Positions 34,527 to 57,457 of a DNA stretch of 64,000 nt are shown piece after piece. Location of the stretch: the NCBI GenBank assembly GCA_023666665.1, contig JAMPBN010000001.1, positions 1,177,332 to 1,241,331 on the forward strand, written 5' to 3'. The notes beneath the pieces were generated by a model. That model saw nothing but the letters and a program-made list of their open reading frames with translations, did no database searches and was not told the DNA's origin. The stretch is from Prevotella sp. GTDB lineage: Bacteria; Bacteroidota; Bacteroidia; Bacteroidales; Muribaculaceae. Position numbers and translations under genes: made by a program. Positions within the stretch are counted from its first letter, which is position 1. Each line of letters opens with the position of its first letter.

Positions 34527-34568
34527 AAAATATGGAGAGGCGGATTTTAAGCCGCCCCTCCATATTTT
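34527..34568 (-). terminator. Terminator of the capsid-portal cassette
   Basis: A 17-bp stem with one A-C mismatch (AAAATATGGAGAGGCGG against CCGCCCCTCCATATTTT) around a 7-base ATTTTAA loop, placed 25 bases beyond the portal stop. On the minus strand the stem ends in a TTTT tract. Confidence 0.75.
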
Positions 34569-34596
34569 CACTGCCCACTGCCCACTGCCCACTTAA
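34569..34596 (-). repeat. CACTGCC heptamer array at the portal gene 3' end
   Basis: CACTGCC three times and CACTTAA once on the plus strand. Its last unit supplies the portal TAA stop on the minus strand. Confidence 0.8.
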
Positions 34597-35885
34597 AGCA
34601 GCTTGCTGCGCGAGGCGCGGAAATCGTCGAAGCTGCGGAAGATGTCGGCCAACGCAGCCATTGAATTGCGCGTCTGCGCATCATAGAGCGTCGCCGAATT
34701 GCCGTTGCCCGTCTGATTGCGTCCCTGCAGAGTGTCGCTCACCCCGCCGGCTTTCTCAAACAGCTTCATCTCCAGGTTTACCAGCTCATAAGCCCCCGAG
34801 GTTGCCGGATTCGTCACCACCTGCTGCGGCCCGGGGCTACCAGGCTGCGGATTGTAGGGAATCACGCCGTCATACGATGCCCAGAGGTTCCTGATGTCGT
34901 TCCACGAATAGTCCTCACAAATCTGATTCTCCGGAAAGAGCAACACACCCTTGGCCGACGACGACATCATATTGTCAATAAGCGTAATGAGGCGGTTTAC
35001 GTGTTTTTGTTGGTCAATCAGCCCCTCAACAAAGGGGTGAATCTCGCCGTCCATCAGCGGATAAAACTTCACCACAAACGGATGTCGCCCGGCCTCGTCA
35101 ATGCGCAGCAATATCCCCTCGGGAGTGAGAAAACGCCCCTGCCAAATCGTGGAATACTCCAGGCGGGTGTGTATGCGCGGCTGCCCCTTTTTGGCGCGTT
35201 TGCGGTTGGTGGCGGTAACCTCGGCGCTTCGGCTCTCCGGCAGGTAATAGAGCGTGGAGCTGAGAGTGTCGTGGCAGCGCAAACGCCCGGCGGCCTCGAG
35301 GGTCCACACCTCTATCACCCGGCAGCGCTCCGCCCCGCCATAGAGGCGCTTAATCTCCTCGGCCTTCTCCTTTGAGCCTCTCGCAAAGCGCCCAACCGTC
35401 TCCGCAAGGCTCCAGTCGTGAAACATCCCCACCAGCTCCATATCAAGGCCACGGGGGTCGCGAATCTCCGAGCAGAAAAAGTCGTCGGGGTTCACGTTGT
35501 CAACCCACACGCCGTCGCCCTCCGGACGGCGCTCGTTGACGATTCTCTGCACCGCGCACCCGCTGATTAGAAACTCCTCGAGCATCCGCGCGTCGAGTTC
35601 GCCGAGGTGGTTGTGGTCAACCGGCGCGTTAGCCTGGTCCTCGCGTGAGCGGAAGTGGCCCACAATCGTCGTCACCAGGCGGTGAATCATATTGTTGGTA
35701 ATGGGCGGCCGGCCGTTGAGCGAGGCATATTCCCCCTCGGTGAGCCGCGAGCCGTCGGGCAGGATGATTATGTCGCCCCACTGGTGGCCATAAGTAAAGA
35801 GCTTGAAGCGCTGCCGCGCCGCGCGAAAGGGTGCAAGGCGATCATACTCGCGCCTTGCGCGTTCAAGATAGTCTGTTTCCATCAT
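34593..35885 (-). CDS. Phage portal protein (P22/SPP1-like), last gene of the capsid cassette
   Basis: 430 aa with portal features: ITNNMIHRLVTTIVGHFRSR near residue 80, DNVNPDDFFCSEIRDPRGLD, then HPFVEGLIDQQKHVNRLITL with DNMMSSSAKGVLLFPE, the stem and clip region, and QGRNQTGNGNSATLYDAQTR. Portals form the dodecameric DNA gate of a virion. It is shorter than P22-type portals (600-700 aa) and lacks a long C-terminal crown. No terminase gene is nearby to dock on it. Starts with ATGA overlap to the upstream 167 aa gene. Composition matches the host. Confidence 0.78.
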   Translation of the reverse strand: MMETDYLERARREYDRLAPFRAARQRFKLFTYGHQWGDIIILPDGSRLTEGEYASLNGRPPITNNMIHRLVTTIVGHFRSREDQANAPVDHNHLGELDARMLEEFLISGCAVQRIVNERRPEGDGVWVDNVNPDDFFCSEIRDPRGLDMELVGMFHDWSLAETVGRFARGSKEKAEEIKRLYGGAERCRVIEVWTLEAAGRLRCHDTLSSTLYYLPESRSAEVTATNRKRAKKGQPRIHTRLEYSTIWQGRFLTPEGILLRIDEAGRHPFVVKFYPLMDGEIHPFVEGLIDQQKHVNRLITLIDNMMSSSAKGVLLFPENQICEDYSWNDIRNLWASYDGVIPYNPQPGSPGPQQVVTNPATSGAYELVNLEMKLFEKAGGVSDTLQGRNQTGNGNSATLYDAQTRNSMAALADIFRSFDDFRASRSKLL

Positions 35886-36385
35886 TCTGTTGCTACTAAA
35901 AGTCGGTCGTCAAAAATGTAAGTTTCGCTCCCGGGGTCGGTTATGGCAATAACCGAGCTCAACGAGCCTCTCGGAGCGCACACAATCAGCTCCCGCGGCG
36001 AAATGCGTGCCGCCATGGGGCGCTGGCAGTAGGGATTTGCCGCAAGGCGGCGCAAGGTTGCGGGATTCTCGTCGGGAACCACCGCGCCGGGCCACTCCGA
36101 GAAGCGCACCCGCAAAATGCGCCTCACCCTCTGGGGCAGCTTCACGTGAGTAACGCCGTAAACCCCCGAAACCTGCGCTTCCGAAGCCAATTCTTCGGGC
36201 GCAAGCAGCTCCTCGGGAGCCTCATCGAGTTGCGTGAGATACCAGGCCCGCATCTCCTCGGTGAGCATGGCGTCAAAATCCGCGCCCTCGGTGCGCGCCA
36301 CCGTGCAGTCGAGCCGCAGGGGCTCGGCTGTACGGGCGTAGCGCCACAGGGTCAACATTTCGGCCTTGGTCAGCGTGCGCTTCAT
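35882..36385 (-). CDS. Unknown protein between capsid and portal genes (possible head completion/adaptor)
   Basis: 167 aa. N-terminal half helical (TKAEMLTLWRYARTAE ... MLTEEMRAWYLTQLDEA), C-terminal half beta-rich (THVKLPQRVRRILRVRFSEW ... SETYIFDDRLL). I do not recognise a family with certainty. Its 4-bp overlaps with both the capsid and the portal gene show it belongs to the module; position and two-part fold suggest a head-to-tail adaptor or portal/capsid assembly factor (inference). Confidence 0.65.
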   Translation of the reverse strand: MKRTLTKAEMLTLWRYARTAEPLRLDCTVARTEGADFDAMLTEEMRAWYLTQLDEAPEELLAPEELASEAQVSGVYGVTHVKLPQRVRRILRVRFSEWPGAVVPDENPATLRRLAANPYCQRPMAARISPRELIVCAPRGSLSSVIAITDPGSETYIFDDRLLVATE

Positions 36386-37575
36386 GCTTTCGTGGCGGTA
36401 ACGCGGACGTGGGCTTCAGGATAACGCAATACCAGGCAGCTCACCTCGGTCATCACTACGGCCTCGGTGTTGCGCTGTCCCGAAGTGCGCAGGTCAAGGG
36501 TTGTGGCCGAGAAAGGCACGTGAACGTACTTGGTCAGGAACTCCGGGTCTATGATAAGACCGTCGGCCGAATGGCCGCAGGAATCGAGTACCTCGGAGTG
36601 AATCACGTAGAGAGTGCCGAACTTGGAGTGCATCTCCGTGAAGTCCAGACCCCAGCGGCTCACCACGTCGCCCGGAAGCATCACGCGCTGATTGCCGTCA
36701 AGCAGCGAAAGCTGCTCAATCAGCTCCGTGCCGGCAACGAGGATTTTGCGCGCCGAACCGGCGTGGCCCGTAAAGGCCGTCGACATCACCTTGAGCCAGT
36801 CGGCCGACTTCAGTGCTCCGGCAGGATAGGTGGCATCCTTGCCCGCCTGATTCCATATGCCTCCGGTCAGGAATACCTCGCATTTCTTCTCCGTGTCGGT
36901 AAAGCGGGCCTTGGTGCCGAACAGGAACGTGCGCTCCATGGCAAGGCGCATGTCGTAGAGCGCCACCTCCTCCTGGTCGGAGAATGTCCAGCCCACCTCC
37001 TTGTTGGCGGCGCGCATTAGGGTTGATTGCTCAATCTGCGTCTTGAAAATCTGGCAGTAGTTCTGCATCTTTTCGGGCAGAGCCTCATATTGCGCGGTCT
37101 GCACGTCGAGTTCGCCGGCAGCGCGACCCATGCGCACCACTTTGGCTCCGGCGGGAATGTCAAAGAGGTCATCGGCCGTGACGTTTACGGGCTTCACGCG
37201 GACGCTCTGACCGTTCACCTCCATCACGTAGGCAATCAGCGCCTCCGAGGCCGAGGTTTTTACATCGGGCAGCATAATGGTTTCCGATTGGTCAAAAGCC
37301 TTGTCCTCGTTAAGGGTCAGCGAAACCACGCTGTCGCCGGCAATCATGGCCTGGGCCTTCAGCGTTGCCGACTGCGGGCGCGTTGCCACTGCGTAATAGT
37401 CTACTGTCATACTCTTGCAGGGCCGTGACGCGGCATAGCGGCTCAGCTGGTCAATGGGCGTGGCCATAGGGCGCAGCTTGGTGATTTTACGGTCTACGTC
37501 GTTGCGCAGAAGTTCGGGGGTCTGTTGGTTTGCGAGCGTGGTTGTCAGGGGCTCGCCGGTAATCTGTTTGCTCAT
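36382..37575 (-). CDS. SU10-type major capsid protein (HK97 fold, DUF5309-like)
   Basis: 397 aa. N-terminal region PELLRNDVDRKITKLRPMAT and a central EALPEKMQNYCQIFKTQIEQ ... SDQEEVALYDMRLAMERTFL, the spine-helix pattern of SU10-like capsid proteins. A C-terminal part with RKILVAGTELIEQLSLL and a GLDFTEMHSKFGTLYVIHSE stretch resembles an A-domain end. It would self-assemble into a shell. No maturation protease or long scaffold is next to it; the 69 aa upstream gene may replace one. Encapsulin is less likely because of the adjoining portal. Confidence 0.75.
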   Translation of the reverse strand: MSKQITGEPLTTTLANQQTPELLRNDVDRKITKLRPMATPIDQLSRYAASRPCKSMTVDYYAVATRPQSATLKAQAMIAGDSVVSLTLNEDKAFDQSETIMLPDVKTSASEALIAYVMEVNGQSVRVKPVNVTADDLFDIPAGAKVVRMGRAAGELDVQTAQYEALPEKMQNYCQIFKTQIEQSTLMRAANKEVGWTFSDQEEVALYDMRLAMERTFLFGTKARFTDTEKKCEVFLTGGIWNQAGKDATYPAGALKSADWLKVMSTAFTGHAGSARKILVAGTELIEQLSLLDGNQRVMLPGDVVSRWGLDFTEMHSKFGTLYVIHSEVLDSCGHSADGLIIDPEFLTKYVHVPFSATTLDLRTSGQRNTEAVVMTEVSCLVLRYPEAHVRVTATKA

Positions 37576-37595
37576 AGTCTTTTCTTGTTGTTTAA

Positions 37596-37634
37596 AGGTT
37601 TAGGGGTTTAAGGGTTTAGGGGTTTAGGGGTTTA
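37596..37634 (+). repeat. TTTAGGGG octamer array at the 69 aa gene 3' end
   Basis: Four to five imperfect copies of GTTTAGGG between the capsid gene and the small gene; it supplies the small gene's stop codon (minus strand TAA). Confidence 0.75.
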
Positions 37635-37841
37635 CTCCCAGATTGATTTATGGATTGTGTTGAGAATCTCAAAGCCTTGCTGAGGCTCCTCGGCCGCTTT
37701 CTGCCCGGGACTCTCCCAGAGCGACGGCTCCTGCATTCTTTTCTCAATCTGTTCGTTCAAGCCTCGGCGATAGCCGCGCTCTTCGGCTTCGGCAAGCTGC
37801 TGCTCAAAGCCGGCGGGGGTGGGGTTCTGATTCTGTTCCAT
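37632..37841 (-). CDS. Small acidic coiled-coil-like protein, first gene of the capsid cassette (possible scaffold)
   Basis: 69 aa: MEQNQNPTPAGFEQQLAEAE then ERGYRRGLNEQIEKRMQEPS, Gln/Glu-rich and predicted helical. No family recognised. Short helical proteins just upstream of a capsid gene are often scaffolding or assembly factors, which is the only basis for that suggestion. A TAACTTTG element (37851-37858) lies 9 bases from its ATG. Its stop comes from an octamer array. Confidence 0.6.
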   Translation of the reverse strand: MEQNQNPTPAGFEQQLAEAEERGYRRGLNEQIEKRMQEPSLWESPGQKAAEEPQQGFEILNTIHKSIWE

Positions 37842-37850
37842 AATGACGCT

Positions 37851-37858
37851 GCAAAGTT
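37851..37858 (-). promoter_or_regulatory. -7 element of the capsid-portal cassette
   Basis: TAACTTTG on the minus strand, just upstream of the 69 aa gene. The upstream spacer is GC-rich and no TTG is found at the right distance, so it may be weak or need an activator. It is divergent from the ilvE promoter. Confidence 0.55.
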
Positions 37859-37900
37859 ACGCCCGCCCCTCGCCGCTGAACCGTAGAATTTGTCCGATTG

Positions 37901-39480: not shown

Positions 39481-39511
39481 CTTTCTACGCCCAAAATCCA
39501 ACTTTAATTCG

Positions 39512-39519
39512 TAACTTTG
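39512..39519 (+). promoter_or_regulatory. -7 element of hisS
   Basis: TAACTTTG 25 bases before the hisS ATG; no clear -33 TTG. Confidence 0.55.
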
Positions 39520-57383: not shown

Positions 57384-57457
57384 TGGCAAAGTTACAACTT
57401 TTAAACAGAATGAAACCGTAGAATTTAATCAAAATTCCGTATTCAAAATTATTTTCG

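Follow-up and report, generated by a model that had tools for sequence, protein, structure and literature searches.

Gene transfer agents (GTAs) are defined by caudoviricete-derived proteins, by a fully endogenised genome, often spread over multiple loci, and by mostly vertical inheritance with co-diversification with the hosts; the definition also requires random host DNA in the particles, own genes that are not fully packaged, and delivery (PMC9662315). RcGTA of Rhodobacter capsulatus (Rhodogtaviriformidae) is endogenised and vertically inherited, occupies several loci under common control, includes lysis genes and has a 49-nm tail (PMC9662315). FpGTA of the gut anaerobe Faecalibacterium prausnitzii (phylum Bacillota) has two operons with genes homologous to short-tailed phages. 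Its structural operon measures about 10.5 kb, a second locus carries structural and lysis genes, fibre and receptor-binding genes are known, and GTA-like random packaging and particles are proven (PMC12946183, Nat Commun 2026). The GTA classification paper names none in Bacteroidota.

The window, a stretch of 64,000 nucleotides from a Prevotella sp. of the Muribaculaceae, contains a four-gene cassette that is probably the operon for the head of a short-tailed, domesticated GTA whose genes are co-regulated and whose particles leave the cell by lysis. Like FpGTA, the system belongs to a gut anaerobe, its genes are homologous to those of short-tailed phages, and where the set is contiguous (genome G022) eight core genes lie together in about 10.5 kb of chromosome; its scattered loci can be likened to the second FpGTA locus, the whole comparison being one of descriptions and not of sequences. 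It differs from FpGTA in its host phylum, in its up to five unlinked loci, in being known from genes alone, and in that the set yielded neither a tail fibre nor a receptor-binding protein. With RcGTA it shares endogenisation, vertical inheritance, several loci, common control and lysis genes, but it has a short-tail nozzle and an SU10-type capsid from a Bacteroidales phage, and its origin is presumably independent. It looks like a new GTA lineage, in a phylum without a reported GTA in the literature searched.

As the sequence-only reading had described, the four genes are intact and lie in one direction (Table 1), with ATGA overlaps at 36382-36385 (capsid/P3) and 35882-35885 (P3/portal), and have core genes as neighbours, lptG at one end and an ilvE-like gene at the opposite end. 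Its assignment of an SU10-type capsid (SU10_MCP, E 6.7e-50) and of a portal (P22_portal, E 1.7e-16; phrog_156, E 1.1e-30) was confirmed, and the 17-bp stem terminator that it had placed downstream forms a strong stem, in a stretch that matches its own reverse complement at 86%. The promoter-like TAACTTTG noticed just upstream of the first gene belongs to a longer, specific element, of which it makes up one half. The ORF lists showed no recognisable integrase next to the cassette, and no att sites were seen. The absence of terminase, tail and lysis genes holds for the surroundings of the cassette in the window, but not for the genome, and the cassette is not isolated as had been proposed, since terminase, nozzle and lysis genes that share the cassette's promoter are encoded elsewhere in the same genome.

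Table 1. Features of the cassette, with positions in the window
Feature	Position	Strand	Basis
P1, 69 aa, scaffold-like protein, directly 5' of capsid	37632-37841	-	
Major capsid protein, 397 aa, HK97-fold, SU10 type	36382-37575	-	PF17236 and phrog_26635
P3, 167 aa, putative portal-tail adaptor (head-to-tail connector)	35882-36385	-	Fold comparison and profile
Portal protein, 430 aa, P22 type	34593-35885	-	PF16510 and phrog_156
Shared promoter element TCTACG-N22-TAACTTTG, upstream of cassette	37852-37887	-	Exact genome-wide pattern match
Intrinsic terminator: stem of 17-base arms around an 8-base loop, followed by a U run	34528-34569	-	Fold

Among the PHROGs the capsid matched phrog_26635 with an E-value of 2.9e-82. 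The portal has a shorter C-terminus than phage portals (430 aa vs 644-673 aa). P1 may be a scaffold, judging by its position: homologues of 68-170 aa lie 5' of the capsid in other genera, and its HMM also matches a 261-aa protein 5' of a phage capsid (E 7e-5). For P3 (AlphaFold model pLDDT 90.8), Foldseek alone gave no match under 0.001, and phage adaptors were set apart only with VIA. The best 11 VIA matches (Z 4.8-7.2), including SU10 7z47 (Z 6.6) and crAss001 (Z 6.2), are all portal-tail or adaptor chains of short-tailed phages, with all other matches at Z <=4.2. A P3 profile built without phages recovers phage homologues (E 3e-10 to 7e-5), and the predicted structure folds like a portal-tail adaptor of the short-tailed phage type.

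In the source genome (G000), the large terminase gene (TerL) lies 742 kb from the cassette and encodes every catalytic motif intact; the Walker A, Walker B, motif III and nuclease acidic residues are kept in TerL throughout. The nozzle gene is 58 kb away, and two small conserved genes, a phage lysozyme and spanin-like genes are also present. These loci (C11:1.212-1.215 Mb, C11:1.2727 Mb, C11:0.470 Mb, C11:0.4-1.2 kb and C28:78 kb) have no adjoining integrase, and the set stretches over 1.2 Mb and two contigs, far beyond the capacity of any such head. An intact prophage would be one continuous phage genome that includes an integrase as well as replication and regulatory genes. This was rejected, as host genes flank the cassette and the distance to the other parts ranges from 58 kb to about 1.2 Mb.

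Capsid, portal, TerL, adaptor, nozzle and endolysin were assigned by HMM or fold. The modelled nozzle folds like a tail-nozzle protein, resembling P22 gp10 and T7 gp12; PDB sequence searches with the nozzle, P3 and P5 profiles gave no match, and fold comparison alone worked. P5, P6 and the holin-like and spanin-like proteins are unnamed by Pfam and PHROGs, and the labels holin and spanin were given by eye from position, transmembrane segments and lipobox. No holin lies next to the promoter-linked lysozyme in the source genome. A phage origin of P6, assumed at first, is not supported by a profile without phage sequences, which finds nothing significant in phages (best E 0.19).

The element TCTACG-N22-TAANTTTG, in which TAANTTTG is read as the -7 part of the promoter, has six exact matches in the genome, compared with 0.03 expected and none for its backwards control, and four of the six sit at the cassette, terminase, nozzle and lysozyme genes. 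Further members of the regulon were sought by pattern search. With the shared element as a probe in one genus, holin, lysozyme and spanin-like genes were found; in another genus a different element, also with fixed spacing, marks capsid, terminase, holin and GH108 endolysin genes. The putative control element appears to differ between genera and to be common to unlinked operons within each genus. At P5-P6 it is absent in the genomes examined. A motif 5' of hisS in the window is absent in four relatives and was therefore read as chance or an ordinary promoter. The system is a clear test case for what keeps dispersed GTA genes under joint regulation.

Co-control of lysis and structural genes would also suit a cellular device without transfer, such as programmed lysis that sets DNA free, or a decoy used in phage defence, but a complete packaging motor and the predicted adaptor and nozzle are needless for lysis alone, and we regard such a device as improbable. 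Of the options listed in the sequence-only reading, a gene-transfer-agent component is the best, and satellite, nanocompartment and decayed prophage are not sustained. A helper-dependent satellite, for which the cassette would give the capsid and the terminase of another phage would package it, could account for a capsid-portal cassette without an adjoining terminase in the window, and some genomes (L105, L107) do carry prophages that are true relatives of the ancestor phage. However, phage satellites of the PICI type are mobile elements with integrase and att sites, packaged with a helper, whereas neither was seen beside the cassette, integrase being judged from ORF lists, and the cassette is mostly in single copy per genome, in nearly all genera at differing sites, with a dedicated, intact and conserved terminase that carries the same promoter. 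No helper terminase is therefore needed, and a satellite is very unlikely. The genome's own terminase, nozzle and lysis genes under the cassette's promoter also speak against a nanocompartment. An encapsulin is an HK97 shell without portal and packaging motor and with a cargo enzyme; here portal, adaptor and TerL are conserved with the capsid and the operon has no enzyme cargo.

The capsid was found in 355 of 397 family genomes (E <=1e-3), and TerL, nozzle and P5 in 32, 34 and 33 of the 37 sampled Muribaculaceae genomes, respectively. The genome of the cultured Heminiphilus faecis AM35 (L236) likewise has the capsid. The set occurs in nearly all Muribaculaceae genera; in the chromosome of nearly every one the cassette either stands by itself or is accompanied by partner genes of its own. 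In genus g30 most species have weak capsid matches (E 1e-4 to 1e-12), and the system may therefore be lost there. The capsid is also present in six more Bacteroidales families, with TerL in every sampled member of those. Gene order in the cassette is kept, whereas the lptG/ilvE flanks vary by genus.

Reading frames are intact across hundreds of species. With dN/dS of 0.02-0.10 for the capsid, 0.05-0.11 for the portal (0.02-0.11 for the two together) and 0.18-0.26 for P1, the set is, by these ratios, under strong purifying selection. Temperate phages resembling Bacteroides phages BF1-TP2 and BKO1-TP3 are clearly the source of the genes, and such an origin would fit a decayed prophage remnant without function. 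Such a remnant is, however, scarcely tenable against the intact frames, the low dN/dS, the kept catalytic residues and the shared promoter at unlinked sites. The genes are not confined to full prophages or under relaxed selection, and the proposal of a domesticated virion module is upheld by conservation, selection and a capsid clade of its own.

In the capsid tree the domesticated sequences group in a single clade (98/95) that excludes the five capsids tested from phages and prophages. The TerL tree gives no resolution on whether domesticated TerLs form one clade against phages, and the single origin therefore rests on the capsid tree. Bacteroides temperate phages BKO1-TP3 (PQ571269), BS-TP4 (PQ571277) and BF1-TP2 (PQ571263), whose capsids (38-39% identical) fall outside that clade and whose portals are 32-35% identical, have homologous TerL, P3 and P5 (in two phages examined) and, in BKO1-TP3, a homologous nozzle; they differ in being full phages of 64-68 kb with integrase, repressor, very large proteins and a longer portal. 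Family clades are monophyletic in the trees. Measured against one host gene, HisS, distances correlate with r 0.64 for the capsid and r 0.63 for TerL (0/2000 permutations), and capsid and TerL distances correlate with each other at 0.79. Inheritance appears to be mostly vertical, with co-diversification with the hosts.

From sequence evidence on the parts, their intactness, conservation and selection, one capsid origin and a shared promoter, we infer particle assembly, random host-DNA packaging, control and delivery as follows. A dedicated regulator would act on the upstream element that the unlinked operons have in common and so switch them on in some of the cells; one candidate for this role is P5, which is phage-derived and may instead be a small terminase. 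Scaffold-like P1 and the capsid would build a small prohead on the portal, TerL would package chromosomal DNA by a headful mechanism, and adaptor P3 and the nozzle would seal the head and make a short tail. The cell would then be lysed through the holin, endolysin and spanin-like genes, releasing the particles, whose DNA would be received by neighbouring cells.

A particle like PBSX of Bacillus subtilis, a contiguous, long-tailed defective phage, would need the same gene set; it would be DNA-filled and lysis-released, and would kill or inhibit competitors without usable gene delivery. PBSX packages random 13-kb host DNA that is not transferred, and its action is bacteriocin-like (PMC7667829). 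The lack of a receptor-binding protein among the genes found, with delivery only presumed, would agree with this, but the predicted nozzle and adaptor would form a DNA conduit and not a contractile or long tail, and one capsid lineage over seven families is more readily explained by cooperation among relatives than by toxin-like turnover. We consider a killing particle unlikely, though it is the chief competing explanation. The available text of a mouse-consortium VLP study gives no predicted prophage in Muribaculum intestinale, where prophage finders detect nothing, and mentions no packaging signal for it (PMC10197239), which was counted against a GTA; random packaging would not show up as an induced region.

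On balance we favour, somewhat less firmly than the GTA reading of the cassette itself, a family-wide GTA of Muribaculaceae and related Bacteroidales families, with <=5 unlinked loci under one rapidly changing, genus-specific element. It would be a principal channel for exchanging genes in the animal gut, and would add another independent case in which a tailed phage was domesticated for DNA transfer. Muribaculaceae are a dominant mouse-gut family and are common in other animals. If true, a domesticated virus would ship host DNA between their cells. In mouse-gut particle sequencing, many contigs with packaged host DNA were from Bacteroidetes, patterns like those of generalised transduction or GTAs were seen in 46 contigs, and roughly one pattern in four was unexplained (PMC7667829); the Muribaculaceae system is a concrete candidate for these. 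Four IMG/VR contigs (L318-L321), with capsids 51-53% identical, carry the same clusters; in our judgement these are GTA loci of the host that were catalogued as viral.

The four cassette genes, encoding P1 (69 aa, scaffold-like), the capsid (397 aa), P3 (167 aa) and the portal (430 aa), lie where the sequence-only reading had placed them, on the minus strand of a 2.16-Mb genome (99.97% complete), with intact frames and ATGA overlaps. Its calls of an SU10-type capsid (PF17236, E 6.7e-50) and of a portal, which is of P22 type (PF16510, E 1.7e-16), were confirmed, and folding gave a strong hairpin for the downstream terminator. All top fold matches of the P3 model (pLDDT 90.8) are portal-tail adaptors of short-tailed phages (Z 7.2 for cyanophage A4, 7.1 for Pa223, 6.6 for SU10 and GP4, 6.2 for crAss001), the best match outside these phages having Z 4.2; as the values are middling, the weight of the assignment lies in this separation from other folds and in the operon position.

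The capsid was present in 355 of 397 Muribaculaceae genomes (E<=1e-3), mostly in single copy, with 48-78% identity among the best matches listed and frame breaks almost absent in the family-wide search. Relatives recovered through the capsid carry names such as Muribaculaceae, Heminiphilus faecis and Paramuribaculum, which places the host in the family Muribaculaceae. Weak matches (E 1e-4 to 1e-12) were concentrated mostly in one genus, g30, in most species of which the capsid gene seems to have been lost or replaced. Of 20 loci in other genomes, 18 keep the order P1-capsid-P3-portal; L053 has P1 and capsid only, and at L050 the portal is split over two frames and no P1 was called. Constant flanks, in contrast, were not found, the neighbours changing from genus to genus. 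Among 393 sampled Bacteroidales genomes, 33 carried the capsid (E 1e-164 to 1e-205); besides host-family genomes, these include more than one member of each of six other families (f22, f28, f60, f68, f88, f109). Four further matches were weaker (1e-60 to 1e-107), two being second copies and at least one lying inside a true prophage. True prophages related to the ancestor were seen at L105 (G157:C44), L107 (G002:C3) and L120 (G415:C81), and in genomes G157 and G002 they coexist with the domesticated set.

In pairs with mostly unsaturated synonymous change, dN/dS was 0.02-0.10 for the capsid, 0.05-0.11 for the portal, mostly 0.07-0.18 for P3 (0.30 in one very close pair) and 0.18-0.26 for P1. 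In the capsid tree, the sequences from all seven families group as a single clade (support 98/95), apart from the five phage and prophage capsids included, and within it the host family and likewise the other families are each monophyletic. Distances were correlated between capsid and HisS (r 0.64), terminase and HisS (0.63) and capsid and terminase (0.79; 0 of 2000 permutations); the terminase tree left the relation to phage terminases unsettled.

Among phage records, temperate Bacteroides phages come closest, with 38-39% identity in the capsid and 32-35% in the portal. With a profile built from their large terminase, 32 of 37 family genomes proved to have a terminase, our own among them (phrog_2, E 8.4e-29). 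The terminases compared retain the Walker A, Walker B and ESTANG motifs and the D, E and DD residues of the nuclease, with minor changes around catalytic residues. In own-lineage terminases (L121; G147, G041, G157) the Walker A sequence LKARQWGGST has become LKSRQWGCST, the catalytic residues being kept. Comparison of neighbourhoods revealed a protein of 620-930 aa adjoining the terminase in many genera and present in 34 of 37 family genomes. The model of the 623-aa protein (pLDDT 89.2) was matched along its full length by tail nozzles (Z 16.4 for Pan3, over 376 residues; 15.8 for SU10; 14.9 for P22 gp10; 13.8 for T7 gp12), and across about 250 residues only by other propeller proteins. Downstream of the portal, many genera have two small genes, P5 and P6, which in others are placed elsewhere; in the Bacteroides phages, P5 homologues lie near the terminase gene. 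P5 is conserved, phage-derived and, in the genomes read, outside the shared promoter, and may therefore be an activator or a small terminase. In one genome (G022), P6-P5-portal-P3-capsid-P1-terminase-nozzle are contiguous within 10.5 kb. Short viral contigs in IMG/VR (L318-L321) carry runs of nozzle-TerL-P1-capsid-P3-portal(-P5-P6) and are probably host gene transfer agent loci classed as viruses. In the deposited phage records PQ571269 and PQ571263, the capsid is annotated as a DUF2951/DUF5309 protein.

Positions of features (G000, own genome; C, contig; L, locus)
Feature	Position	Strand	Remark
Window	G000 C11:1177332-1241331		
Large terminase	G000 C11:470490-472049		
Nozzle	G000 C11:1272661-1274532		
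Lysozyme	G000 C11:380-814		
P5, P6	G000 C28, near 78 kb		
Shared element	window 39484-39519	+	25 bp upstream of hisS; not conserved in four relatives
Shared element	window 57387-57422	-	no long ORF downstream
Phage large terminase	L059 21873-23987		PQ571269; called 'tail spike protein'
Phage large terminase	L060 20118-22145		PQ571263; called 'tail spike protein'
Own-lineage terminase	L121 9350-11122		
RecA-like ATPase	L449, G003:C13:48909		227 aa

A single element at constant spacing, TCTACG-N22-TAANTTTG, lies upstream of unlinked operons; in Bacteroidales the -7 box usually reads TAnnTTTG. Our genome has six exact matches (0.03 expected by chance; 0 in the backwards control), five of them before the cassette, the terminase, the nozzle, a lysozyme gene and hisS, and one without a clear gene. 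The lysozyme is of phage type (PF00959, E 2e-39; phrog_7 endolysin, E 3.7e-49) and is followed by a spanin-like lipoprotein with a C-terminal membrane segment. In G147, the element stands only before the cassette, the nozzle, the terminase and an operon of holin-like, lysozyme and spanin-like genes; in G157, before exactly the first three; in G123, the cassette, nozzle, lysis operon and one other site. The lysis operon of G041 again carries it, among many copies. Five other genomes of the genus had no exact match, and the element is thus lineage-specific.

Other genera have different elements, yet each is common to its own unlinked operons at fixed spacing (G010, G007, G013, G003); the background chance of an identical run at the same offset is 0.002 for 8 bases and 0.0005 for 10 or more. 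Used as a probe, the G007 element, CGGGTTCAGCG-N14-TANNTTTG, gave five matches, of which two lie at the cassette and the terminase, two at genes for a holin homologue and for a GH108 endolysin (PF05838, E 8.8e-17; phrog_315, E 3e-32), and one at no gene. Lysis genes were thus reached on two occasions by probes taken from head and packaging genes, in two genera that differ both in their element and in their endolysin. All 11 own-genus genomes have a member of the holin family, as do 10 others among the 37 searched.

A shell with portal, adaptor and short tail, a packaging motor and a lysis cassette would thereby stand under single control, in a set that appears to be inherited vertically, with no integrase recognised beside its genes in the ORF lists; this predicted parts list matches the needs of a gene transfer agent. 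As the main rival stands a particle killing other cells instead of transferring DNA. The parts of the set include no fibre or receptor-binding protein, no proven small terminase and no assigned regulator. Regarding a gene transfer agent, three of the six features of the published definition (PMC9662315) were found in this system from its sequence, and the closest known system in style is FpGTA of Faecalibacterium. The open-access literature searched yielded no paper joining gene transfer agents with Muribaculaceae and no such agent described for Bacteroidales or Bacteroidetes, although publications outside it are possible.

The only third match of the G003 element precedes the RecA-like ATPase, which could have a role in DNA uptake or packaging. 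In G041, element copies lie in a similar repeated stretch, TCTACGCTTTCACCCTCTGTTCCCTTCGTAACTTTGCAACATC (L400, L410, L417, L419, L421, L425, L426), as if it were a mobile or amplified promoter repeat. Three paralogues in this genome (L414, L424, L427), of about 200-235 aa and sharing a conserved GLGIYMCVLEALFDE core, each lie 22-29 bp after the element and are possible extra members of the regulon.
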